In this document: positions 2,554 through 27,625 of the stretch, piece after piece
Layout of the letters: the number at the start of each line of letters is the position of its first letter
Numbering within the stretch: position 1 is the first letter of the stretch
Source: Bacteroidota bacterium
Lineage (GTDB): Bacteria > Bacteroidota > Bacteroidia > B-17B0 > Aurantibacillaceae
Length of the DNA: 33,312 nucleotides
NCBI GenBank assembly: GCA_030681615.1
Contig: JAUXSA010000165.1
Location: forward strand, 1-33,312
Direction of reading: 5' to 3'
Program-made: the position numbers and the translations under genes
Notes under the pieces: model-generated
Seen by the model: only the letters and a program-made list of their open reading frames with translations
Told to the model about the DNA's origin: nothing
Database searches by the model: none

Positions 2554-4746
2554 TTAGTTTATTACTAATTTTTTAGACATTTTAGCGCCATTTACACTCA
2601 GGTTTACAAAGTAAATTCCTTTAGATAATGTGCTGCCTTTATTAATTGAGATAACTTGCTCACCAGCACCGTAATTGTAGCTTGTAGCAGGAATAACATT
2701 TTTTCCTAATACATCAACTACGTTCATATTAACGGTTGAAGCATCGTTTAAATTAAATTTAACGGTCACTTCTCCATTAGATGGATTAGGGAATACATTT
2801 AGTTTGTAGCTTTTGGTTAATTCATTTATACCGTTAACACCGGCACCTTTAAAACTAATAGCATCTAAAAATATTCTGTTACCCAAACCATTCATTGGAT
2901 CTTCTGTAAACACAAAGCGGAAAGTTGCGCTTGCTGAATTTGTAAAATTAAACCAATAAGGATATTGTGATACGTCAACTTCTTTCCATTGTGATAAGAT
3001 TGGGATAAACGGAGATGAAGTCGTTCCACCAGAACCTGCTGCCATTGTTGCTGCAGATAGATTTACAACATCTATCCATGATCCGCCACAATCAAGAGAA
3101 CCTTGTAATACTAATTTATCGTTGTGTGTAGAATTTTGTCGTGCATAAGCGTAAGAAAACTTTAAAGTATCATTTGGATTATTTACTATATCCATTACCG
3201 GCATTACAAGAATATCCTGTTGACCAAAACTACTTTGTGTACCATCAATAAAAAAAGAACCGCTGCCGTCTTTTGCTGCGATACTTGTTTGTTCCCAGGT
3301 TACACCATTTGTATTAATAATACTCCAATTAGGCGGGGTAACATTTGGTACCTCAAAACTCTCCATATAATTAGAAGTAATTACGGCTGTGCCATTTAAA
3401 ACATTTATAACTTTTACAATAGTATTACTACCCTGCGCATTAGTTGCAGTTAAAGAAACAGTTGTAAGCCCTTGTACCGGAAATGAAATGGACGTAACAG
3501 AGGTGTTAGGACTTGCTATAACAGCACTATTATCGGCTGCCCATGCATAAGATGTTATAGTGCCATTGTATGAAAAATCTTTAAATGTTAACGCACCACC
3601 AGAACATACACTATAGGTAACTGTTGAATTTAAGTAAGGTAGGAAATTTGCAATGGGTGCACATGGTGTCGTTCCATTAACATCTGTGAAAGCCAGATTT
3701 GTTGGCGACCATAAATTACTTCTGCTACCCGGGGCAGATTGCAGGCAAGTTCTCATGCGCTGTGTTTGACCATTTGTGAAATTTTTAGGGCACGAAGAAT
3801 AATCCATAATGTTCTCTACATTTTGATAATAATTAGCAGAGTTGGTTGGATTTGGGGATGTACAAGTAAAAGCTGTATTTGTTGAACTTGCAGGACAAGT
3901 ACTAAAATTACCTTTTGTATCAGGCGTATCAGAAACACCATCTCCACCAGCTGTTGAACCACAAACTACACCGGGATTATTTGTATTTCCGAAAGTATGT
4001 GAAAGATTTAACCAATGACCAATTTCGTGTGACAACGAGCGTGCATTTAACCCGGTTAAAAAAGAATAGTTATAAATGATCGCATCCTGAATTGCACCTG
4101 GTCCAAAAGTTCCTGGCAAAAAAGTGTATCCTATAACCGTTCCATTTTGATTTGGGGCTGCTACAATATCTTTTACAATAATGATATTTAAATATTTAGT
4201 AGCGTCCCAGGTTATTCCACTAAACAATGCAGGATTAGCTCCTGATGAAGGTGGATTACGATCCCAATTCGTTCTTGCATCATAACGGTGAACAATTCCA
4301 TTAGTACAGTTACCGCTAGGATCTTTTTTTGCCAAAACAAATTTAATATCCGAGTTTATATATAATGCCTGAAATGGAGCAAAAATAGTTGAAACATCAG
4401 AGCCGGCAGCAGCAAAATCGCTATTAACAGAGGCAAGAGCAGCGTTAACCGCAGCATCACTTATATTTTCTGAACCACCTAAATGCAAAATATGAAACAC
4501 AACCGGAATTGTATACTCTACCGCCGCACTTTTATTTGCAGAAAGGTTAGACATATTTTGATCATATTGTTTTTGAAAACTCGCCTGTGCTGCCTGATAG
4601 CTTTTTAATGCCTCCGGATTTGCTTTAAAATGTTCTTCCATTGCAGCAAAAGTATTGCAAGGCAGAATTTTACCGTTTTGTGAGAAGCCTGTTATCGCAG
4701 ATAGAAATGCGATACCAAACACTATTTTAGAAAATTGTTTTTTCAT
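2554..4746 (-). CDS. Secreted M43-family zinc metalloprotease with T9SS sorting domain
   Basis: The 730-residue product starts with a signal peptide (MKKQFSKIVFGIAFLSAITGFSQ). The peptidase domain carries the zinc motif HEIGHWLNLSH at 240-250; H240, H244 and H250 are the expected ligands and E241 the catalytic base. VENIMDY further on supplies the Met-turn. This is the pappalysin/cytophagalysin (M43) pattern, with Asn where many metzincins have Gly. A PKD-like segment (about 385-450) and a cleaved-adhesin/MAM-like beta domain (about 460-640) follow. The C-terminus is a type A T9SS sorting domain with VFPNPSNGEV and ends KKLVIN. It is probably exported by the T9SS and cleaved or anchored at the cell surface. 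The gene begins 18 bases after the SPFH gene and is followed by a terminator. A paralogue lies at 25595-27625. Confidence 0.92.
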   Translation of the reverse strand: MKKQFSKIVFGIAFLSAITGFSQNGKILPCNTFAAMEEHFKANPEALKSYQAAQASFQKQYDQNMSNLSANKSAAVEYTIPVVFHILHLGGSENISDAAVNAALASVNSDFAAAGSDVSTIFAPFQALYINSDIKFVLAKKDPSGNCTNGIVHRYDARTNWDRNPPSSGANPALFSGITWDATKYLNIIIVKDIVAAPNQNGTVIGYTFLPGTFGPGAIQDAIIYNYSFLTGLNARSLSHEIGHWLNLSHTFGNTNNPGVVCGSTAGGDGVSDTPDTKGNFSTCPASSTNTAFTCTSPNPTNSANYYQNVENIMDYSSCPKNFTNGQTQRMRTCLQSAPGSRSNLWSPTNLAFTDVNGTTPCAPIANFLPYLNSTVTYSVCSGGALTFKDFSYNGTITSYAWAADNSAVIASPNTSVTSISFPVQGLTTVSLTATNAQGSNTIVKVINVLNGTAVITSNYMESFEVPNVTPPNWSIINTNGVTWEQTSIAAKDGSGSFFIDGTQSSFGQQDILVMPVMDIVNNPNDTLKFSYAYARQNSTHNDKLVLQGSLDCGGSWIDVVNLSAATMAAGSGGTTSSPFIPILSQWKEVDVSQYPYWFNFTNSASATFRFVFTEDPMNGLGNRIFLDAISFKGAGVNGINELTKSYKLNVFPNPSNGEVTVKFNLNDASTVNMNVVDVLGKNVIPATSYNYGAGEQVISINKGSTLSKGIYFVNLSVNGAKMSKKLVIN

Positions 4747-11592: not shown

Positions 11593-12003
11593 ATGTTAAC
11601 TGAAGAACAGGTAAATACCATCCTAACAAAAGAGATAAGCTTTAAGACTTCCCGCTCAGGCGGCAAAGGAGGCCAAAACGTTAATAAGGTGGAGACCAAA
11701 GTAGAATTGGAGTTTAACGTACAAACTTCCACTGCTTTAAAACCCGAACAAAAAAAGACGATCTTTAAAAAGTACCCCGATTTTATTGAGGGGACTTTAA
11801 TAAAACTGATTGGCAATACAGACCGGTCTCAGTTGGGGAATAAAGAAATTGCTTCAAAAAAACTCATCATTCTTCTTAATAAACTTTTAAAACCGGTTAA
11901 AAAACGACTGGCTACAAAGCCAAGTAAAGGGTCTATCCGAAGGAAAATTGAAAGCAAAAAACATAAAAGTGAACAAAAACAATTAAGGAAAAGAATAATC
12001 TAA
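11593..12003 (+). CDS. arfB: ArfB/YaeJ-like peptidyl-tRNA hydrolase (release-factor homologue)
   Basis: This 136-residue protein has the release-factor GGQ motif at 26-28 within TSRSGGKGGQNVNKVET, followed by a compact domain and a strongly basic, Lys/Arg-rich tail (about 95-136). That is the layout of ArfB (YaeJ), which rescues ribosomes stalled without a stop codon: the tail enters the empty mRNA channel and GGQ hydrolyses the peptidyl-tRNA. The ATG at 11593 is preferred over a TTG ten codons earlier because MLTEEQ is the family-like start. The MBOAT gene begins one base after its stop, so they may share a transcript although their functions are unrelated. Confidence 0.92.
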   Translation: MLTEEQVNTILTKEISFKTSRSGGKGGQNVNKVETKVELEFNVQTSTALKPEQKKTIFKKYPDFIEGTLIKLIGNTDRSQLGNKEIASKKLIILLNKLLKPVKKRLATKPSKGSIRRKIESKKHKSEQKQLRKRII

Positions 12004-12004
12004 T

Positions 12005-13411
12005 TTGTTATTTAACTCCATCATATTTACAGTTTTTTTACCGATAGTTTTTATTCTTTATTGGATAACGCCGCCAAAATACCGCAATTACTTTTTATTA
12101 CTGGCATCATATTATTTCTATTACAGTTATAATCCCTGGTTCTTATTATTATTAATTGGCACTTCAGCCGTAGATTACTTTCTCGCCAGAAAGATCTCTT
12201 TAACAGAGAACAAAAAAAGAAAAAAAATGTTTTTGGTATTAAGTCTGGCCAGTAACCTGGGTGTTTTATTTATTTTTAAATACTTTGTTTTCTTTTACAA
12301 CTCTTCAGTTGAAGTCTTCAATATTAATTCTAAGCTCTTAAATAACTTTATAATTCCCGCAGGTTTATCGTTTTACACATTTCAGTCGTTAAGCTACACT
12401 ATTGATATTTACAGGGGAAAATACAAAGCAGATGATAGGTTCTCTGATTTTTTATTATTCGTTTCTTTTTTCCCACACATGGTAGCCGGCCCAATTGTGC
12501 GTTACAATGATCTCATGCCACAGTTTAAGATCATTACGTATTTTAAGAATATAAACTGGCAGTCTTTTGCCACATTGGTTATTTGGGGTTATTTTAAAAA
12601 ACTCGTAATAGCCGATAATTTAAATTTAATTGTTACCCCCGTTTTTAATGATGTTATGGCGTTTTCTGGTTTTGAATTATTATTGGCAGGTTTTTTATTT
12701 GTGATACAGGTTTACTGCGATTTTAGTGGCTATAGCGATATTGCCACAGGTGTAGCCAAATTGTTCAATATTAATTTAACATTGAATTGGCGAAGACCTT
12801 TGTTCTCAAAGTCACTACACGAATTCTGGAAACGCAACCACATTAGTATTACCACCTGGTTCAGAGATTATTTATATATAGGTTTGGGTGGCAGTCGCGT
12901 TGGTTATAACCGCTGGCTGCTAAATATGTTTTTGGTATTTGTTATAAGCGGTTTTTGGCATGGCGCTAATTTTACCTTTGTTATTTGGGGTACTTTACAC
13001 GGACTTTTCTATATTTTAGAGATCCTGCTCATGAAAAAATTTCCAGATATTAAAATACCGGCAGTCTTAGGAAGGTTGTATTTACTGGGCTTTCATACCT
13101 TAACACTCATTGCCTTTCGGGCTAATGATGTTACCGATCTAAGTTATATCTATAAACATATTTTTTCGTTTAGTAACTGGAATTATTCTTTAAGCACATT
13201 ACTAAATTACCAGGACAGGTTTTATTTCTTCGTCATTTTCATAGCTATCCTTGTTTTGTTCTTTAAAGAATTGAATGAAGAATATGCTATCATTAACAAA
13301 TACAAAAACGTTTATTCATTTTTAAAACCTTTGGTATACATAGGTTTTGTTGTACTTATTTTTATTTTAGGGAATTTTTCAGCTAACACATTTATCTATT
13401 TTCAATTTTGA
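12005..13411 (+). CDS. MBOAT-family O-acyltransferase (AlgI/DltB-like)
   Basis: This 468-residue polytopic membrane protein starts with the MLFNSIIFTVFLPIVFILYW segment typical of AlgI-like proteins. That segment supports the TTG at 12005 as the real start, since no upstream ATG is available. The two hallmark histidines are visible: H279 in FWKRNHISITTWFRDYLYI and H319 in SGFWHGANFTFVIWG, the latter being the catalytic His by family analogy. MBOAT proteins pass acyl (often acetyl) groups across the inner membrane to an extracytoplasmic partner that modifies a polysaccharide. The next gene, overlapping by four bases, encodes an SGNH-like protein fitting that partner role. The polysaccharide substrate is unknown. 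Confidence 0.93.
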   Translation: MLFNSIIFTVFLPIVFILYWITPPKYRNYFLLLASYYFYYSYNPWFLLLLIGTSAVDYFLARKISLTENKKRKKMFLVLSLASNLGVLFIFKYFVFFYNSSVEVFNINSKLLNNFIIPAGLSFYTFQSLSYTIDIYRGKYKADDRFSDFLLFVSFFPHMVAGPIVRYNDLMPQFKIITYFKNINWQSFATLVIWGYFKKLVIADNLNLIVTPVFNDVMAFSGFELLLAGFLFVIQVYCDFSGYSDIATGVAKLFNINLTLNWRRPLFSKSLHEFWKRNHISITTWFRDYLYIGLGGSRVGYNRWLLNMFLVFVISGFWHGANFTFVIWGTLHGLFYILEILLMKKFPDIKIPAVLGRLYLLGFHTLTLIAFRANDVTDLSYIYKHIFSFSNWNYSLSTLLNYQDRFYFFVIFIAILVLFFKELNEEYAIINKYKNVYSFLKPLVYIGFVVLIFILGNFSANTFIYFQF

Positions 13412-14352
13412 TAAAAAAAGTGATTACATATTTTTTGATCACCACTGCCCTTTTGTATGGCTTAAGACAACTGCATTACAAAGGTTTGCTTAAACAAACC
13501 GCCGGATATTACGACAAATACAATACAGCTTTTTTTAAAAATAATAATTTTAATACACTGTTTTTAGGTTCTTCTCGTGCCGAGATGCATTACGATACAA
13601 AATTGTTTGATAGCTTAACCGGTTTAAATTCTTTTAATTTAAGCCTTGCAGGTGCCAATCCACAAATAGCATTTGCAGCGCTTAAAACCTATTTGCACAA
13701 AAGCAAAGCTCCAAAATATTTGATCTATGAAGTAGATTATCATTACTTAAAATACAAAAGCAGCGAAATAAAAGAATTCAATAATTATTTTCCTTATTTA
13801 TCAGAACCTGAATTACGTGGGCAACTCAGTAAGGTTGATGCCCGCATGGATCATTTTTATTATAACCCGTATTACTCATTTCCATATACAGGTTTTAAAA
13901 ATTTAAGTACCAGTATGCATGGTTGGTTAAATATCCCAAACCGAACAGACTCTTTTTATTACAAAGGTTATTTAAATGAGTCATTAAGGCCAAGTCTAGT
14001 ATTTAACCGCGTTACGCCTTGTTATACATTTTTTAATGTAAATGATCGGGCATATCTGGATTCTATCATCACCATTTGTAAGCAAAATAAAACAAAAATT
14101 ACACTTGTGAGTTCGCCAATTTTTGCCGGTGGCAAGGTTGATCTAAAAAATAAGGATCAAATAATTGCACAACTTCACAATATTGCCAAAATAAATAATA
14201 TTTCTTTTTACGACCTATCATCTCTCTCCTTTTGCAATAACAGAAAATTGTTCATCGACCATTACCATTTGAACTATTTGGGAGCCACCAAATTCACCAC
14301 TTGTTTTTGTTCATTATTCAACAATAAAATAGCTACTATTTCGTTAAAATAA
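13408..14352 (+). CDS. SGNH/GDSL-like envelope protein, likely partner of the MBOAT acyltransferase
   Basis: This 314-residue protein has one N-terminal membrane anchor or uncleaved signal (about 4-20). LFLGSSRAEMHYD follows at 51-63, where G54-S55-S56 matches block I of SGNH esterases with S56 as likely nucleophile. A NLSLAGANPQ segment looks like block II, and FIDHYHLN near 282-289 offers D284 and H287 as the other triad members. That pattern resembles the extracytoplasmic acyl-transfer partners of MBOAT proteins (AlgJ/AlgX-like). The start codon is TTG, overlapping the MBOAT stop in TTGA, so translation is probably coupled. Residue roles are inferred from motif position, not from a structure comparison. 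Confidence 0.82.
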   Translation: MIKKVITYFLITTALLYGLRQLHYKGLLKQTAGYYDKYNTAFFKNNNFNTLFLGSSRAEMHYDTKLFDSLTGLNSFNLSLAGANPQIAFAALKTYLHKSKAPKYLIYEVDYHYLKYKSSEIKEFNNYFPYLSEPELRGQLSKVDARMDHFYYNPYYSFPYTGFKNLSTSMHGWLNIPNRTDSFYYKGYLNESLRPSLVFNRVTPCYTFFNVNDRAYLDSIITICKQNKTKITLVSSPIFAGGKVDLKNKDQIIAQLHNIAKINNISFYDLSSLSFCNNRKLFIDHYHLNYLGATKFTTCFCSLFNNKIATISLK

Positions 14353-14393
14353 AGTAGAATTTCATTTTTTTAGCTTAATTTTAGTAATTGGAT

Positions 14394-15476
14394 ATGCAAA
14401 AGTCTTTTATTCTCTTTTTGGTAGTGTTTTCGCTGGCTGCAAAAGCCCAATTTCGTAAATACAGTAACGAATTCTTAAATATTGGTGTAGGAGCACGCGC
14501 TTTGGGTATGGGCAATGCCAATATTACCAGCGTTGAAGGTGTTAATTCAGGTTACTGGAACCCTGCGGGATTATTAAAGCAAAAAAGCGATATTGAAGTG
14601 AGTTTAATGCATGCCGAGTATTTTGCCGGTATTGCCAAATACGATTACATAGGTGTTTCAAAAAGAATTGACAGTAACAGCGTTGCCGGCATTTCTATTT
14701 TACGTTTTGGTGTGGATAATATCCCAAATACGCTTGACCTTGTTGATGCTAATGGCAATGTAGATTACAACAGGATAACCACTTTTAACGCGGTAGATTT
14801 TGCAGCTTTATTAAGTTACGCCCGCAATATTCCTCAATTAAAAGGTGTTGAAGTTGGCGGAAATTTTAAGATCATTCGCCGTAAGCTTGGCCAGTTTGGT
14901 GGTGCCTGGGGTTTTGGATTGGATGCCGGTGCAAAATATAATTACAAGAACTGGAAATTTGCTGCAATGGCAAGAGATGTTACAGGAACCTTTAATGCCT
15001 GGAGTTATAATTTAAGTGAAAAGGACATTGCTACTTTTCAACAAACAGGTAACGAGATCCCTTCTTCCTCTATCGAAGTAACTGCTCCAAAATTAATATT
15101 AGGCACTGCGCGTAGCTTTTTATTCTGGAAAGACAGAATCTCTGTATTAGGAGAATTAAATTTAATAAACACGTTTGACGGAAAAAGAAATACAGTGGTA
15201 AAAACAGATCTTTGGAGTATGGAACCTGCTTTTGGTACTGAAGTTGGTTACAAAGGCTTTGTTTATTTGAGAGGCGGCATTGGCAACATTCAAAAACAAT
15301 TAAGCGATGATGCCACAAAATACATTACTACTTTTCAACCCAACTTTGGCGTAGGTGTTAAGTACAAGATCTTTACTTTAGATTATGCGTTGACTGATAT
15401 TGGCGACAGGTCTATTGCTTTATATTCAAATATTTTTTCATTAAAAATAGATATCAATAAAAAAATGAACAAGTGA
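14394..15476 (+). CDS. porV2: PorV/PorQ-family outer-membrane protein, putative PorV2
   Basis: The 360-residue product has a signal peptide (MQKSFILFLVVFSLAAKAQ). A beta-barrel of the FadL-like PorV type opens with NIGVGARALGMGNANITSVEGVNSGYWNPAGL, the family signature. In the T9SS, PorV carries cargo from the translocon to the PorU sortase. The gene directly downstream encodes a C25 PorU-like protein and overlaps by four bases, which supports a PorV2/PorU2 pair rather than a general porin. ATG at 14394 is preferred over a TTG two codons earlier. The spacing to the SGNH gene is 41 bases. The PorV2 name is by recognition; PorQ-like is the main alternative. Confidence 0.85.
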   Translation: MQKSFILFLVVFSLAAKAQFRKYSNEFLNIGVGARALGMGNANITSVEGVNSGYWNPAGLLKQKSDIEVSLMHAEYFAGIAKYDYIGVSKRIDSNSVAGISILRFGVDNIPNTLDLVDANGNVDYNRITTFNAVDFAALLSYARNIPQLKGVEVGGNFKIIRRKLGQFGGAWGFGLDAGAKYNYKNWKFAAMARDVTGTFNAWSYNLSEKDIATFQQTGNEIPSSSIEVTAPKLILGTARSFLFWKDRISVLGELNLINTFDGKRNTVVKTDLWSMEPAFGTEVGYKGFVYLRGGIGNIQKQLSDDATKYITTFQPNFGVGVKYKIFTLDYALTDIGDRSIALYSNIFSLKIDINKKMNK

Positions 15477-18400
15477 GAAAACTACTCGCAATAAGCATAT
15501 TTTGTTTTGTTGCATTTACCATTAAAGCCCAGAGTTATGGTAATGAGTGGATAAACTTTTCTCAGCAGTATTTTAAATTCCCAATTTCTAAAGAAGGTAT
15601 TTACAGAATTGATTCTACTACCCTTTCTACCCGCTTTAATTTAAGTACTTTAAATCCAAAAAATCTTCAGCTATTTATTAAAGGAAAAGAAAAACATCTT
15701 TTTATTAATGGTGAAAGTGATAACCAAATAAATAGTGGCGATTATGTTGAGTTCTACGCCAGCCCGTATATGGGCGATGTAGATTCACTCATTTATACCG
15801 GCATTAATTATCTTCCCAATCCTTACGCACCCCTTTTTAACGATACACTTTATGGTTTTATTACTGTAAATAACTTAACTAACAATAAGCGTTATACTCT
15901 TGAAAGCGATACAACTGCCGCCCTTTACCCTACAGGTAATTATTTTTATTCCGAAAAAATATTAACCGGTAACTCAGTTTACAATTCTGTGGCAGAATAT
16001 AACTCTGGTGCAAACAACCCTTGTTATACACAGGCTGAAGGGAAAGGACTTGCTTTTGCAAAAGGGAGTTCAGTTACCACAACGTTCTCAAATTTAAATA
16101 CCTATACGGTTGGCGGCTTGCCTGTTTTTGTTTCTATAAATTTTTCAGGACTCAGCATTGATCTTACATTTAACAAAGACCACCAGGTAAGAACATTTTA
16201 CACCGATCAAAATAACAGCAGCATACAATTAGCCGATACCGTTTTTACCGGCTTTTTACCGGTGAGACGAACCTATACTTTAAATTCGCAAAACACAAAT
16301 AACACAACCAATATTTCCTTGCAATCAGTTGCTGTGCCATCATTGGCATCCATAAGCAACAATACCATGTTGCATTACATCAACTTTTTTCATCCACAGC
16401 TACCTGATCTTGATAACAAATCGTTTTACAAATTATTTATTGATAATCATCCCTCTTTTCCTAAGACATTTTTTAATTTCTCGAATTTTAACCTGGCAGC
16501 TTCTTCAAGTGTGTTATTGTATGATATTACTAATAATAAAAAAATAACTACAAAACTAACGCCTGCACCACAGGTAAGGGCCGTAATACCAAATGGCACC
16601 GGTCGTAAACTGTGTATCCTGGCCGCAGAGTCGCAAACCATTGCCGTTCCGGCTTTAATACCGGTAAACCAAACAGGTACATTTACTAATTATAAAAATT
16701 CACCTTCAGGTAATCCGTTTGTTATTATTTATCATAAAAATTTGCAGTCAGGTGCAATGTCGTATAAAAATTACCGCCAAACAATTGCAGGTGGTTCATA
16801 CAATGTTATTTCGGCTGATGTTAGCGAACTGTACGAACAATTTTGTTATGGCATCAATAAACACCCTTTAGCTATAAAGAATTTTTGTAAATTTTTAAAA
16901 GATAGTTTAACATCTGTACCAAAATATGTTTTTCTAATAGGAAAAGGTGTAGGTTGCGATGCCCTTACTACAGGCACACAATCAGTTAACCTGATACCCA
17001 CAATGGGCATACCAAGTTGCGATAACCTTTTAACTTCTGTTTTAACGCCAACCAACACAAATATATTTGCTCCTGAAATTCCAATTGGCCGGATCGCCGC
17101 TCTATCAAATACAGATGTAAATATTTACCTGGCCAAGGTACAGCAACATGAAAGCACTACGCCAGCCGATTGGAAAAAACGTGTATTGCATTTTGTTGGT
17201 GGCGACGAAACCAATCTTGCCAACCTACTTTCATCTTACATGGCCAGCTATGAGCAAATAATTAAAGACACACTTTTTGGCGGTGAAGTATTTACTTTCA
17301 AAAAAAATACTACCGCCCCTATTCAAACTGCAATAAGCGATAGTATAAAAGGAATAATAAGTAATGGCGCGGCACTGATAAATTTTTTCGGGCATGGTTC
17401 CGAACAAGGATTTGACCAGGCTATTGATGACCCTGAAGTTTATAATAATACCGGTAAATATCCATTTGTAATTGCGAATTCATGTTACTCAGGTAATATC
17501 CATATTCCGGGCAGGCAATCGGTAAGTGAGAAATTTGTTTTTTCTAATCAAAAAGGTAGTATTGGTTTTTTAGCGGCAACGTCTTTGGGCTTTGTGCATG
17601 CTTTAAATACTTATGATAATTGGTTCTACCAGGCGCTATCAAAAACGCATTACAACCAGGGTATTGGAGATATTATAAAATCCGCCGCTATAAACAATGC
17701 ATTCTCTTTTGATAAAATAACACAATTTACAAGTTCAGATATGACACTTCACGGTGATCCATCTTTAAAGATAAGTGTTGGTGCCCTACCCGATTATCAA
17801 ATAAAAAACAGTGATGTTGTTTTTAATACAAAAAAATATACCGATTCGTTAGGCCTTGTAATTAAAATGAAAAATTTAGGTAAAGCGGTAAGTGACTCTA
17901 TTTTTGTTAAGGTAGAACGTTTTTTCCCTAATGGCGATTCAAGCACTATCTTTAAAAGAAAACTGGCGCCATTTTTTAAAGACAGTTTAGTGTTTTTTAC
18001 GCAGATAGATTTTAACCGCGGCATTGGTTTAAATAAATTTAAAGTAAAACTGGATGAGTTTAACGAGATCGGTGAAAGCATAGAAACCAACAATAGTACA
18101 TTAGGAACAGTTGACATTTTTATTCCCGGGGGTGATGTGGTGCCCGTGTATCCTTACAAATATGCAATTGTACCCAAAACAAGTACCATTACCTTAAAAG
18201 CTTCTACAACTGATCCTTTTGCCCCAACTGCTACATACCGTTTTCAATTAGATACCTGCGATAAATTTTTGAGTCCTATACAATCTACTTTAATGACCAG
18301 CAGCGGTGGTGTTTTAGAATGGAATGTAAATTTACCTTTTGCTGATAGTACGGTTTATTTTTGGCGTGTAAGCCGGGATAGTACTTTGCCCACAACCCCT

Positions 18401-20491
18401 TTTATATGGCGCGAAAGTTCTTTCCAGACCATTGGTACAAAACGTGGTTGGGCTCAGGCACATTTTCATCAGTTTAAAAATGACAACTACCAGTTTGTGA
18501 ATTATAAAAAATCCATCAGACAATTTGTATTTGAGAATACTAAACAAAGTATTGCCTGCCGTAACGGTATACAACCTGCCATTTTTCCAACTAACATTAA
18601 TTTCTTTTTTAATAATCTAACACTCTCAAGTTGGGGTTGCGCACCGGATGGCTGGAATTTTGCAGTCTTTGATTCTATCAGTGGCCAACCCGATGATGTA
18701 ATAAGTGTTAACTGGCCAGCGGCCGGACCGGGAACCTATAGCAATTGTGTTTGTGTGTCTAACCAGGTGTTACGTGTTTATTCTTTTGGCGCTGCCAATT
18801 ATTGTGGTTTTGGTAATTGGAAAACAAGCATGGAAAATTTCCTGAATACAATTCCAACTAATAATTATGTGTTAGCATATACCATGGGTGCTCAAAACCC
18901 AACCTATGCAGAAATTACAACCTATAATAATTCACTTTATAATGCCTTTGAAAGTATTGGTGCTGTAACCATACGCACAACGGCAGACACTGTGCCGTAT
19001 ATCTTATTCGGTAAAAAAGGAATGATTGCCGGGCAGGGACATGAAGTAAAAGGGACGAACAAACAATCAATTATTACGTTGAATGATAGTATTAAAACAA
19101 GATGGAGTAATGGTTATGTTACCTCTGAGATCATCGGGCCTTCTTATAAATGGAACAGCTTACACTGGCGTGTAAAAAGTATTGATGCGTTGGCAGGCGA
19201 CACAACTGTTTTAAAATTAGTGGGTATAAGAAATAATGGGCAAATAGATACATTACACACTTTTATACAGGACAGTACTGATATTTTAGCGCTATACAAT
19301 TATGCTGATGCAGCCGTACATCCATATTTAAAGCTGGTTGCTTTTATGAAGGATAATATAAACACTACATCACCACAATTAAAAAAATGGCAGGTAATTT
19401 ATGATGAAGCCCCTGAATGCGCTATCAATCCATTAAAGGGCTTTCAAAGTATAAATGATACCTTGCAGGAAGGTGATGAAGTAACTTTTAAATTCCCGAT
19501 AGAGAATATTGGCGTTAAGAATTTTACCGATAGTTTGGTGGTTACTTATTGGATAGAAGATAACAACCGTAACCAAACCCCGCTGCCACAAAAAATGAAA
19601 TCGAAACCCTTTGTGCCGGGACAGATCTTTATTGATACCGTGAAAATAAACTCATACCAATACGTTGGCAACAATGCATTGTGGATCTATGTAAATCCTC
19701 TTACCAATTCTAAATACCAAAAAGAACAAACACAATTTAATAATTTAGGCAGGTATGCCTTTAAAGTTTCTAAAGATATTACCAATCCATTGCTGGATGT
19801 GACATTTGACGGTATACGCATTTTAAACGGAGATATTGTTTCCGCAAAGCCTTCTATTTTAGTGACCCTAAAAGATGAAAATAGATTTTTAGCATTAAAC
19901 GATACAGGTTCTTTTGCAGTGTTTGTGCAGGCGCCCAACCAAAGTTTGCAACAGCGTATTTATTTTGCGCAGGACTTACAGTTTACACCGGCCAGCTTAC
20001 CTAAGAACAGTTGCAGTATAACTTATAACCCAACATTTGCGGTGGACGGAAAATATATGCTCATCGTTCAGGCAAAAGACAGGAGCCGTAACAACTCAGG
20101 TTCGCAGGACTACAAGATCCAGTTCGAGATAAATAATAAACCAACGGTTACCAACGTGTTAAACTACCCTAACCCTTTTAGCACAAGCACAAAATTTGTA
20201 TTTACACTAACGGGTAGTGAGGTGCCGGAAGTATTCACTATACAAATTATGACCATTACCGGTAAAATTGTTAGAGAGATACAACGATCAGAATTAGGAA
20301 ATGTACACATAGGACGGAACATTACTGATTACGCCTGGGACGGAAAAGACGAATATGGAGATAAGTTGGGCAACGGTGTTTATTTGTACAAAATAGTTAC
20401 CAAACTTAATGGCAACGATATTGAAAAATCAGGTAATGCTGCCGATAAATATTTTGTGAAAGATTTTGGCAAGATGGTTTTAATGCGATAA
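15473..20491 (+). CDS. porU2: C25 gingipain-family protein, putative T9SS sortase PorU2
   Basis: This is the largest gene in the window (1672 residues). A signal peptide (about 1-20, ending IKAQ) precedes a beta-rich N-terminal region. The C25 cysteine-peptidase domain spans about 415-780, with the catalytic dyad H641 in NFFGHGSEQG and C671 in IANSCYSGN. CARDB/Ig-like beta domains follow (about 790-1540). The C-terminus carries a FlgD-like/type A sorting domain (NYPNPFSTSTKF near 1565, then YAWDGKDEYGDKLGNGVYLYKI). PorU cleaves sorting domains from T9SS cargo and joins cargo to A-LPS. This long form with a PorV-like partner fits the family labelled PorU2. The start is GTG, overlapping the PorV2 stop as GTGA. 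A plain gingipain-like protease remains possible but is less likely given the neighbour. Confidence 0.85.
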   Translation: MRKLLAISIFCFVAFTIKAQSYGNEWINFSQQYFKFPISKEGIYRIDSTTLSTRFNLSTLNPKNLQLFIKGKEKHLFINGESDNQINSGDYVEFYASPYMGDVDSLIYTGINYLPNPYAPLFNDTLYGFITVNNLTNNKRYTLESDTTAALYPTGNYFYSEKILTGNSVYNSVAEYNSGANNPCYTQAEGKGLAFAKGSSVTTTFSNLNTYTVGGLPVFVSINFSGLSIDLTFNKDHQVRTFYTDQNNSSIQLADTVFTGFLPVRRTYTLNSQNTNNTTNISLQSVAVPSLASISNNTMLHYINFFHPQLPDLDNKSFYKLFIDNHPSFPKTFFNFSNFNLAASSSVLLYDITNNKKITTKLTPAPQVRAVIPNGTGRKLCILAAESQTIAVPALIPVNQTGTFTNYKNSPSGNPFVIIYHKNLQSGAMSYKNYRQTIAGGSYNVISADVSELYEQFCYGINKHPLAIKNFCKFLKDSLTSVPKYVFLIGKGVGCDALTTGTQSVNLIPTMGIPSCDNLLTSVLTPTNTNIFAPEIPIGRIAALSNTDVNIYLAKVQQHESTTPADWKKRVLHFVGGDETNLANLLSSYMASYEQIIKDTLFGGEVFTFKKNTTAPIQTAISDSIKGIISNGAALINFFGHGSEQGFDQAIDDPEVYNNTGKYPFVIANSCYSGNIHIPGRQSVSEKFVFSNQKGSIGFLAATSLGFVHALNTYDNWFYQALSKTHYNQGIGDIIKSAAINNAFSFDKITQFTSSDMTLHGDPSLKISVGALPDYQIKNSDVVFNTKKYTDSLGLVIKMKNLGKAVSDSIFVKVERFFPNGDSSTIFKRKLAPFFKDSLVFFTQIDFNRGIGLNKFKVKLDEFNEIGESIETNNSTLGTVDIFIPGGDVVPVYPYKYAIVPKTSTITLKASTTDPFAPTATYRFQLDTCDKFLSPIQSTLMTSSGGVLEWNVNLPFADSTVYFWRVSRDSTLPTTPFIWRESSFQTIGTKRGWAQAHFHQFKNDNYQFVNYKKSIRQFVFENTKQSIACRNGIQPAIFPTNINFFFNNLTLSSWGCAPDGWNFAVFDSISGQPDDVISVNWPAAGPGTYSNCVCVSNQVLRVYSFGAANYCGFGNWKTSMENFLNTIPTNNYVLAYTMGAQNPTYAEITTYNNSLYNAFESIGAVTIRTTADTVPYILFGKKGMIAGQGHEVKGTNKQSIITLNDSIKTRWSNGYVTSEIIGPSYKWNSLHWRVKSIDALAGDTTVLKLVGIRNNGQIDTLHTFIQDSTDILALYNYADAAVHPYLKLVAFMKDNINTTSPQLKKWQVIYDEAPECAINPLKGFQSINDTLQEGDEVTFKFPIENIGVKNFTDSLVVTYWIEDNNRNQTPLPQKMKSKPFVPGQIFIDTVKINSYQYVGNNALWIYVNPLTNSKYQKEQTQFNNLGRYAFKVSKDITNPLLDVTFDGIRILNGDIVSAKPSILVTLKDENRFLALNDTGSFAVFVQAPNQSLQQRIYFAQDLQFTPASLPKNSCSITYNPTFAVDGKYMLIVQAKDRSRNNSGSQDYKIQFEINNKPTVTNVLNYPNPFSTSTKFVFTLTGSEVPEVFTIQIMTITGKIVREIQRSELGNVHIGRNITDYAWDGKDEYGDKLGNGVYLYKIVTKLNGNDIEKSGNAADKYFVKDFGKMVLMR

Positions 20492-25594: not shown

Positions 25595-27625
25595 TTACTC
25601 TTTTATAATTTTAACCATTTTGTTCCCTTCTGATGAACTTAATTTTACAAAATAAATACCTGCCGGGAAGTGCTGAATGTTGAATGATAAATCCTGACCG
25701 AGGTTTTCATCTATTAAAACCTGCCCAAGCGAGTTTAAAAATTGAACCTTTACGTTTTTATCATGGGTCGTTCCTAATTTAAAATTCAACATGCCTGTTG
25801 TAGGATTTGGAAATACTGTAACATTATTTAAAACAGAATTATTTTCTTTCACGCTCACAATCCCACTCACATTGATGTCATCAATAAAAATATTGTTACC
25901 CGGCCCTGAAGCAAAAGGTGTAAACTCAATTTTAAATGCCACCTGTGGGTTACCTACATAACTTCCTAAAGCCAAAGCCTCTGTAACCCATTCTGCAGGT
26001 TGTGGCGTTAGATAGGCTGAAGTAATTAATGTACCTGTAGTGCTTAACTGCGCGCCACTTTTAGCGTATAGTTGAGTCCAATTACTACCGCAATTAATAG
26101 AAACAAATACCTTTAAAGCATCATTATTACTTGTATTTTTTTGCGCATAAGCATATTTAAAAGATAATTGCGGTACGTTAATAATGTTTTGGAGGTTATA
26201 CATAGGACTATAAATACTAACTGCACCATTTGGGTTATCGAAAAAATTATTTACCCAGGCACAATTTGTGCCTGTAGCGGCAGTTACTGTATTAGTTTTA
26301 AAACCGCCTCCGTATTGTGGTATTGTAGCAATCCAGTTACTATCCGGAAAAACGGTTTCAAAGCCTTGTGTAATATTTAATGTTCCGCTATTTGGTCCGG
26401 CTAAAACAATCAATACTTGTTTAGTTACAGAGTCTTCGCCAAAAGCATTGCCTACTTTTAATTTTACAGAAGCAATGCCCGAAGCAGTAAAAGATAATGT
26501 TCCATTTTGCGCAGTAGATGTATTTGCCGCCGAAGGGCTGCTCCACAACCAACTTGTGGCAGTGGCATTATAACTAAGATCGGTGAAGCTAAAATTATTA
26601 CCTACGCAGGTAACCGGATTTGAAATAAATTCTGCTTTTGGAGCGCAATTTGGGTTGGGATTGATTACACCGGTTGCTATTAAGTTGGCGTTGGTTGAAA
26701 GATTATCCCGTCCGGCAATACCGCTAATTATACAATTATGCATCCTGGTCTTTTGCCCTTGTGTGAACATTCTTGAGCAATAAGCATATTCCATATAATT
26801 TTGAACGTTCTCTACAACCCCCGATGTACAAACAGCCGAATTTAACTGGCAGCTTGAATGTCCTTTTGTAATAGGTGTATCGCTAACGCCATCATCTCCG
26901 CAAGCAACACCGGGGTTATTAGTGCTTCCCCAAACATGTTGCAAATTGAACCAATGGCCCACCTCATGCGTTAGAGTTCTGGATGAAAAAGAATTGGACG
27001 TTCCTATATTACCAACATAATTATGCAACATTACTATCGCATCAGAATTGGCGCTTGCTGTACCAGGTAAAAAAGTATAACCAGCCGCACCACTTTGCAT
27101 GGTCTTAACTACATAAATATTTAAATATTTCGTGCGATCCCATGTGTACAAATAAAACCCACCACTTGGCGACCAATTTGTATTTGGCGTATAATGACGT
27201 GTGATACCGTTAGTACAAACACCATTCTCATCTAAAGTAGCTAACCTAAACTCCATCTCGCAATTAGCCGCTATAGGTTTAAACTGGGCTATAATACTTG
27301 TAGTATCTGAATTTAATTTTTTAAAATCCCGGTTTAAAACCGTCATCGCACTATTAATTTGCGCATCACTAATATTTTCAGAGCCTCCTAAATGTAAAAT
27401 ATGAAAAACAACAGGAATGGTATAAGTAATTGCAGCAGTTCTTAACTGCGAGCTATTATTAGCTTGATTATTAGCTTCCTGGATTAACCTCTCAAATCTT
27501 TGTTTGGCGGTTGGGTCTTCTTTAAATAAATATTCGTTTGCTTCAAGAAAGCCGCATTTAAATCCTTCCTGGGCAGTTGCAATTCCAACAAATGACAAAA
27601 GGGTAAATAGTAAAATTTTTTTCAT
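25595..27625 (-). CDS. Secreted M43-family zinc metalloprotease with T9SS sorting domain (paralogue)
   Basis: The 676-residue product has a signal peptide (MKKILLFTLLSFVGIATAQ) and the zinc motif HEVGHWFNLQH at 220-230 (H220, E221, H224, H230), with VQNYMEY as Met-turn. A PKD-like domain (about 330-400), a cleaved-adhesin-like beta domain (about 415-590) and a type A sorting domain (VFPNPTTGMLNF ... GIYFVKL ... MVKIIKE) follow. It shares domain order and about 21 identical residues near the start of the mature part (68-88) with the protease at 2554-4746, so the two are paralogues. It should be exported by the T9SS. The 3' neighbour is the DUF6265 lipoprotein gene, one base away. Substrate is unknown. 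Confidence 0.92.
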   Translation of the reverse strand: MKKILLFTLLSFVGIATAQEGFKCGFLEANEYLFKEDPTAKQRFERLIQEANNQANNSSQLRTAAITYTIPVVFHILHLGGSENISDAQINSAMTVLNRDFKKLNSDTTSIIAQFKPIAANCEMEFRLATLDENGVCTNGITRHYTPNTNWSPSGGFYLYTWDRTKYLNIYVVKTMQSGAAGYTFLPGTASANSDAIVMLHNYVGNIGTSNSFSSRTLTHEVGHWFNLQHVWGSTNNPGVACGDDGVSDTPITKGHSSCQLNSAVCTSGVVENVQNYMEYAYCSRMFTQGQKTRMHNCIISGIAGRDNLSTNANLIATGVINPNPNCAPKAEFISNPVTCVGNNFSFTDLSYNATATSWLWSSPSAANTSTAQNGTLSFTASGIASVKLKVGNAFGEDSVTKQVLIVLAGPNSGTLNITQGFETVFPDSNWIATIPQYGGGFKTNTVTAATGTNCAWVNNFFDNPNGAVSIYSPMYNLQNIINVPQLSFKYAYAQKNTSNNDALKVFVSINCGSNWTQLYAKSGAQLSTTGTLITSAYLTPQPAEWVTEALALGSYVGNPQVAFKIEFTPFASGPGNNIFIDDINVSGIVSVKENNSVLNNVTVFPNPTTGMLNFKLGTTHDKNVKVQFLNSLGQVLIDENLGQDLSFNIQHFPAGIYFVKLSSSEGNKMVKIIKE

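Follow-up and report, generated by a model that had tools for sequence, protein, structure and literature searches.

A candidate glycan O-acyltransferase gene pair linked to the PorV2-PorU2 sortase pair in a lineage of Bacteroidota

We describe a cluster of four genes in a 33,312-nucleotide contig of a Bacteroidota bacterium of the order B-17B0, family Aurantibacillaceae (GenBank assembly GCA_030681615.1, contig JAUXSA010000165.1; the whole stretch is referred to here as the window). Positions 12005 to 20491 encode an MBOAT-family membrane O-acyltransferase, an SGNH-fold partner, the PorV/PorQ-family protein PorV2, and PorU2, a putative sortase of type IX secretion. The first two proteins very probably form, judging from their motifs and fold, a glycan O-acyltransferase, and the linkage of their genes to PorU2 is lineage-specific and far from chance. 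Whether the four genes make up one functional module, in which the acylated glycan would be the anchor of PorU2's cargo, we regard as evenly balanced between yes and no; that the acylated glycan may be the same glycan that receives the cargo is our best inference from the analysis as a whole.

Results

All four genes are open frames on the plus strand, and a re-reading of the sequence confirmed the positions claimed for them in an earlier note on this DNA. The MBOAT (12005..13411; 468 amino acids, TTG start) scores 65.4 bits on PF03062 (cut-off, 27) and overlaps by 4 bases (TTGA) the gene of its partner (13408..14352), which was recognized as SGNH-fold from a predicted structure and fold matches. 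After a spacer of 41 bases (14353..14393) follow PorV2 (14394..15476; 475 bits on NF052325, cut-off 325) and PorU2 (15473..20491; 1672 amino acids, GTG start; 660 bits on NF052324, cut-off 450), which also overlap by 4 bases (GTGA, 15473-15476). Both overlaps were thus verified, and the 41-base distance between the pairs holds with ATG 14394 as the PorV2 start; the TTG at 14388, which opens the longest frame, gives 35. The spacer contains no TAnnTTTG promoter box, an absence that says little.

The linkage was surveyed in 87 genomes of the order (10 genera, one family), with membership in the SGNH subfamily set at a profile match of E<1e-40. The genes from which this profile was made are all PorU2-linked (11 from the order and 1 from family f6), so that it favors their relatives; the search ignored gene positions, and six of the seven outer families described below are absent from the profile. 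PorU2 is present in 79 of the 87 genomes and the SGNH subfamily in 48, among which it lies directly upstream of PorV2-PorU2 in 37, spread over five genera (g1, g195, g198, g200, and g203), and elsewhere in 11, including G487, where a contig break runs through the module. By a rough sum from 385 MBOAT matches in the 79 PorU2 genomes, which uses a single genome size of 3.7 Mb and ignores kinship, chance would place an MBOAT in the 2.5-kb same-strand slot upstream in about 0.13 genomes, compared with the 37 of 79 observed for the SGNH subfamily. The subfamily occurs in none of the eight order genomes that lack PorU2 (P = 0.001, uncorrected for kinship; four of the eight are less than 90% complete).

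Spacing across the module is operon-like. With neighbor frames called simply as the longest open frames, and not by a gene finder, the MBOAT/SGNH overlap of 4 bases is kept in 31 of 36 linked loci and that of PorV2/PorU2 in 27 of 37, and in 36 of 38 the first ATG of PorV2 comes 20 to 64 bases after SGNH ends. Two genomes (G010 and G482) have PorU2 divided between contigs. A search of public Bacteroidota metagenome assemblies with the SGNH profile recovered 14 loci, several of them on contigs common to both sets; MBOAT-, SGNH-, and PorV2-size frames stand in a row in all 14, and a full PorU2-length frame follows in 13, while in L124 it runs to the contig end. At one locus (L062, genome G013) the SGNH gene matches in two separate pieces before PorV2, through decay or assembly error; G438, the nearest PorU2 relative of G013 on the tree, is without the MBOAT-SGNH pair.

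The first case outside the order, G029, belongs to another family and was one of 15 outside loci in the initial locus set. In a class sample of 395 genomes, with at most five SGNH candidates scored per genome and PorU2 searched in the 31 genomes with an SGNH match, we found 16 outside carriers of the subfamily in seven families (f6, f75, f76, f83, f84, f86, and f90). SGNH lies within 3 kb upstream of PorU2 in 13 of these, at 1.1 to 1.6 kb in 12; in G570 it is 3.0 kb from PorU2 and the MBOAT is 2.5 kb from SGNH, and in G736 the order of the two pairs is reversed, with MBOAT-SGNH downstream of PorU2. Another 15 genomes have only a weaker SGNH match (E of 1e-40 to 1e-20), on a contig lacking PorU2 in 14 and in a genome without PorU2 in 1, and of the 10 weaker matches within the order (E>1e-40) a single one, in G469, is on the PorU2 contig. 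The divide between linked and unlinked genes follows the SGNH subfamily, though the profile was made from linked genes. Over the order and class together, PorU2 is present in all 64 carriers of the subfamily (the G522 match, at the end of a contig, is partial and under the cut-off), and SGNH stands beside it in 52 of the 64, with G487 counted as linked. In a phylum sample of 392 genomes, again with at most five SGNH candidates scored per genome, no SGNH match (E<=1e-12) was found on a PorU2 contig outside the window.

Phylogenetic analysis, with seven MBOAT paralogues from the window's genome and one other MBOAT for comparison, placed the subfamily MBOATs in one clade of 40 (support, 100/98), of which 35 are linked and 5 unlinked and nested; two MBOATs of less than 400 amino acids and one SGNH protein of less than 250 were dropped. 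On the PorU2 tree the linkage state changes at least 12 times. Genus g203 as one clade is not rejected by MBOAT alone (p = 0.30) and is rejected by SGNH alone and by the joined alignment, and PorU2 rejects the grouping that the SGNH tree gives within g203 (p = 0.001, the grouping having been chosen after the SGNH tree was seen). It is probable from these alignments that in g203 SGNH, perhaps with MBOAT, was replaced while the neighboring PorU2 was retained. We make no claim that G029 received the cassette by transfer: the MBOAT tree groups G029 with G431, but the order as a clade without G029 is not rejected (p = 0.36), and the branches are long.

These data bear on whether the four genes might be functionally unrelated neighbors, brought together by chance and preserved by common descent. 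Outer neighbors are also shared within g1 and g200, where an outer gene of the window recurs in 22 of 23 linked loci compared with 2 of 14 linked loci of other genera, the module order being kept throughout (common M43, small type IX, and BshA-like matches were left out of this comparison). We nonetheless rank common descent alone as the least probable explanation of those weighed: the module is intact in changed surroundings and in other genera and families, its order is reversed in G736, and its linkage state has changed repeatedly on the PorU2 tree, and both the order and class surveys disfavor it.

The MBOAT ends in FIYFQF (13391..13408), an F-x-Y-x-x-F acyl-shuttle motif that includes Tyr465. 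The accessible text of PMC12148441 describes how in PatA the tyrosine of this motif passes the acyl group to the SGNH partner, and how MBOAT-SGNH pairs acylate many envelope polymers. All 40 MBOATs of more than 400 amino acids in the fetched loci (39 of the subfamily and 1 paralogue) have this C-terminal end, as do seven of seven MBOAT paralogues of the window's genome; on this basis alone, the window's pair is not distinguished from the genome's other MBOATs. His319, invariant in 12 of 12 aligned sequences, is the presumed catalytic histidine. The partner protein matches no family above cut-off in family scans (DUF1574, 23.6 bits against a cut-off of 29.1), and no sensible relative emerged when the SGNH alignment was used for a profile search of the PDB. 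Its structure model (mean predicted local distance difference test [pLDDT] score of 83) comprises an N-terminal helix (residues 2-28), probably a membrane anchor, and an SGNH domain that would then be periplasmic. The best Z score is to Escherichia coli TesA (Z of 17.6, root mean square deviation [RMSD] of 2.5 over 167 residues), PatB follows with Z of 14.1 to 14.6, and the first Foldseek match is DltD (E of 2e-5), but with a TM-score of 0.46 and an RMSD of 10. The segment G54-S55-S56-R57, with the putative nucleophile Ser56, and H287 are invariant in all 12 aligned sequences; the Asp at position 284 is Asn in G029. Given the FXYXXF end of the MBOAT and the SGNH fold of its partner, O-acylation of a periplasmic glycan by this pair is well supported as a prediction from homology.

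Some MBOATs acylate proteins, and the pair could conceivably modify the cargo proteins or their O-glycans instead of the anchor. We consider this very improbable, because an FXYXXF tail together with an SGNH partner is the polymer-acylating layout.

The second pair belongs to the type IX secretion families and is distinct from their canonical members: PorV2 scores 43 bits on PorV NF033710 (cut-off, 250) and 76 bits on PorQ NF033711 (cut-off, 220), and PorU2 scores 206 bits on the canonical PorU model NF033707, for which the cut-off is 420. PorU2 has a C25 domain (residues 416-766; PF01364, 204 bits) with His641 (17393..17395) and Cys671 (17483..17485) as its likely catalytic dyad, both invariant in 125 of 125 aligned sequences, a set that includes two canonical PorU; PorU2 frames of 1000 amino acids or fewer were left out of this alignment and of the PorU2 tree. 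At its C terminus is a Por_Secre_tail-like domain (residues 1565-1648; 20165..20416; 20.3 bits on TIGR04183, under the cut-off of 23), and the C-terminal domain matches the C-terminal part of the solved PorU structure 6za2 (E of 1.5e-7). Its resemblance to PorU suggests that PorU2 may join cargo to a glycan. The region in between (residues 881-1560) gave a poor structure model (pLDDT of 50, predicted TM-score of 0.32), and a weak ILEI match within it (residues 1095-1183; 18755-19021; E of 8.7e-5, under cut-off) was not used as evidence, although domains of this type may bind sugars. Neighboring PorU2 genes are paired at L217 (G130), L240 (G094), and in G205 and G290, with the order PorU2-PorV2-PorU2 at L217; at L218 (G154) the PorU2 match contains TGA and TAG and is divided among several frames. 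Our literature searches recovered no paper describing PorU2 or PorV2; an apparent "PorV2" in one Porphyromonas gingivalis paper proved to be PorV followed by a footnote number, and the sole paper mentioning "type IX secretion" as well as "MBOAT" (PMC10470040) contains, in its accessible text, only an MBOAT gene in a methylation table.

A tie between PorU2 and glycan genes recurs and is far from universal. Distant PorU2-like genes, whose products score higher on NF052324 than on NF033707 in seven of seven cases tested, all seven below cut-off, stand in a co-directional run with GT2, GT4, WecG, Wzx, or Wzy genes at 12 of 17 phylum loci, and the true PorU2 of G034 is likewise in a run with glycan genes. 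Of 28 loci examined, 16 supplied 74 upstream genes, among which Pfam searches returned GT2 (14), GT1 (13), WecG (8), UDP-galactopyranose mutase (5), and flippase (3) matches; the other 12 loci have no co-directional upstream run and contributed no gene. At L247 the gene before PorU2 has an O-antigen ligase domain, and at L238, L241, L242, L244-L248, and others PorU2-like genes lie within or behind glycan-assembly runs (flippase, mutase, GT2, WecG, GT4, and O-antigen ligase). Among 71 PorU2 loci within the order, 13 include genes for putative membrane glycosyltransferases, FkbM, or GT2 in the run, and the MBOAT pair is present as well at 4 of these 13. The hidden Markov models for the glycan genes were seeded from the PorU2 loci themselves; among genes at least seven places from PorU2 they matched 5 of 50 in linked loci of the order, 0 of 29 in its other loci, 2 of 55 in the class, and 4 of 23 in the phylum. 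PDB profile searches with two of the membrane-protein families beside PorU2 returned nothing, and three such families gave weak Pfam GT22 or PMT_2 matches in one or two members each, hence the term putative glycosyltransferase.

PorU2 might instead be a surface protease or releasing peptidase for which the acylated glycan is a docking site or environment only. Its score on the PorU model, less than half of the cut-off, and its long extra C-terminal region with neither a firm family match nor a usable model are consistent with such a role, whereas the invariant C25 dyad, the PorU-like C-terminal domain, a PorV-like partner of its own, and the repeated placement of relatives among glycan genes argue for a sortase, and we judge the protease alternative improbable.

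Several findings weigh against assigning the acylated glycan to PorU2 as its anchor. PorU2 falls below the PorU cut-off, and the SGNH subfamily is missing from 31 of the order's 79 genomes with PorU2. Neither an MBOAT nor a subfamily SGNH lies by any of 40 PorU2 or PorU2-like loci (fetched at 15 to 20 kb) from 40 other genera. The two pairs are apart in G015, G023, and G440, all of the window's genus, and therefore adjacency is not required; they are about 41 kb apart in G481 and on different contigs in G456, as are SGNH and PorU2 in G604 and G756. No MBOAT was recognized beside SGNH in five genomes of the order (G449 and G451-G454), two of which (G451 and G454) have contig ends close by. In G469 five frames intervene between PorV2 and a weaker SGNH (E of 3e-19) that lies 5.7 kb upstream. 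Finally, 36 of 38 class loci outside the order have none of the tested glycan genes in their run, the exceptions being G029 and G034. At the G440 locus (L161), the gene of a SprB-repeat protein carrying a type B sorting domain precedes PorV2-PorU2 and that of an M1-like peptidase follows, and the frames at the G015 locus (L064) are of nearly equal sizes to these.

PorU2 thus exists without the acylation pair, because 31 of 79 order genomes with PorU2 lack the SGNH subfamily and the 40 loci in other genera all lack the MBOAT and SGNH genes, and the latter lead us to reject linkage to the pair as a general rule for all PorU2. The earlier note had suggested from proximity that the glycan receiving the cargo is acylated by the adjacent enzymes, and had set a survey of PorU2 neighborhoods as the test. 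Within the order and seven further families the survey was positive, and as a general rule it was negative; what stands is the pair as a probable glycan O-acyltransferase, from homology, and a linkage beyond chance.

The strongest competing explanation, which we consider somewhat unlikely, is that the pair acylates a bulk surface polysaccharide, an O-antigen or exopolysaccharide, and shares a cluster with PorU2 because both serve the cell surface. The broad range of polymers acylated by MBOAT-SGNH pairs, as given in the accessible text of PMC12148441, fits this explanation, as do the 11 MBOAT matches (in 10 frames) in the window's genome, where six of seven other MBOAT loci are followed by a frame of 315 to 375 amino acids, a possible SGNH gene, and the fact that the pair can sit away from PorU2. 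Set against it are the restriction of the subfamily to PorU2 genomes (64 of 64), its position beside PorU2 in most of them, and the behavior of the weaker SGNH genes, which share a contig with PorU2 in 0 of 14 outside genomes with both and in the order only in G469, at 5.7 kb.

The window's genome encodes two canonical PorU (contigs C92 and C94; 1240 and 1230 bits), one PorU2, and four PorV-family genes. Contigs C92 and C94 are without any MBOAT match; the C92 copy alone adjoins a PorV-family gene, and a shorter C25-like protein is encoded on C64. In the window, an ArfB gene reads in the same direction as the MBOAT, and its stop at 12003 leaves 1 base between the two genes. Two M43 metallopeptidases, each likely type IX cargo by its type A sorting domain, are encoded on the minus strand (2554-4746 and 25595-27625), one about 7 kb ahead of the module and the other about 5 kb beyond it.

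Discussion

If the four genes act together, a cytoplasmic donor (probably acyl-CoA) would supply the MBOAT with an acyl group, and His319 would load it on Tyr465 of the FIYFQF tail on the periplasmic side, as modeled on PatA/PatB. Ser56 of the SGNH protein would, by homology, accept the acyl group and place it on a hydroxyl of an envelope glycan. This glycan would be the lipopolysaccharide-type anchor or linker of PorU2, acylated in the periplasm before export. At the outer membrane, PorV2-PorU2 may provide a second type IX shuttle and sortase that works in parallel with the canonical PorU/PorV, with PorU2 cutting the sorting domain off the cargo and joining the cargo to the glycan in the manner of PorU. 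Acylation would mark or complete a dedicated PorU2 anchor.

The closest known system is PorU/PorV of P. gingivalis with its A-type lipopolysaccharide anchor, which similarly combines a C25 sortase with a PorV-family partner; PorU2/PorV2 differ in falling below the canonical model cut-offs, in coexisting with canonical PorU, and in having an acyltransferase pair in the cluster. In P. gingivalis, cargo is joined to a lipopolysaccharide linker that bears a C4H4O3 substituent on a deoxyhexose (PMC13086638), and the linking sugar is made by the Wbp/Vim pathway (PMC7468200), according to the accessible text of both papers; that of PMC13086638 names no enzyme for C4H4O3, which by our own reckoning is the formula of a succinyl substituent. 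An acylated PorU2 anchor is plausible because the P. gingivalis linker provides this precedent. PatA/PatB, the peptidoglycan O-acetyltransferase, likewise combines an MBOAT bearing a C-terminal FXYXXF-type motif with an SGNH partner (PMC12148441, in its accessible text), whereas the window's SGNH protein is in no named family, the pair is linked to a type IX sortase, and its substrate is only surmised. With DltB/DltD of teichoic acid D-alanylation the window shares structural likeness, in that the PDB relatives of the MBOAT are DltB and DltD is the SGNH model's first match; in contrast, the window's MBOAT scores 111 bits on TIGR04091 (cut-off, 375) and carries the shuttle motif at its own end, whereas Dlt has a separate DltX.

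We propose more tentatively, as a possibility that falls short of even, that PorV2-PorU2 is a second sorting channel with a glycan anchor of its own and that PorU2 loci carry lineage-specific, exchangeable anchor-making genes: the acylation cassette in the window; membrane glycosyltransferases, an FkbM methyltransferase, or GT2 elsewhere in the order; and glycan operons in other lineages. Published anchor chemistry covers, as far as the accessible text of PMC7468200 and PMC13086638 goes, only two oral species, P. gingivalis and Tannerella forsythia. A conserved cluster of an O-acyltransferase and a sortase would give a direct handle, through two small genes, on the cargo linker, and suggests that anchor chemistry could change without touching the sortase. 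If our proposal is true, a single bacterium would direct its cargo to two surface anchors of different chemistry, and the sortase would coevolve with the chemistry of its anchor.

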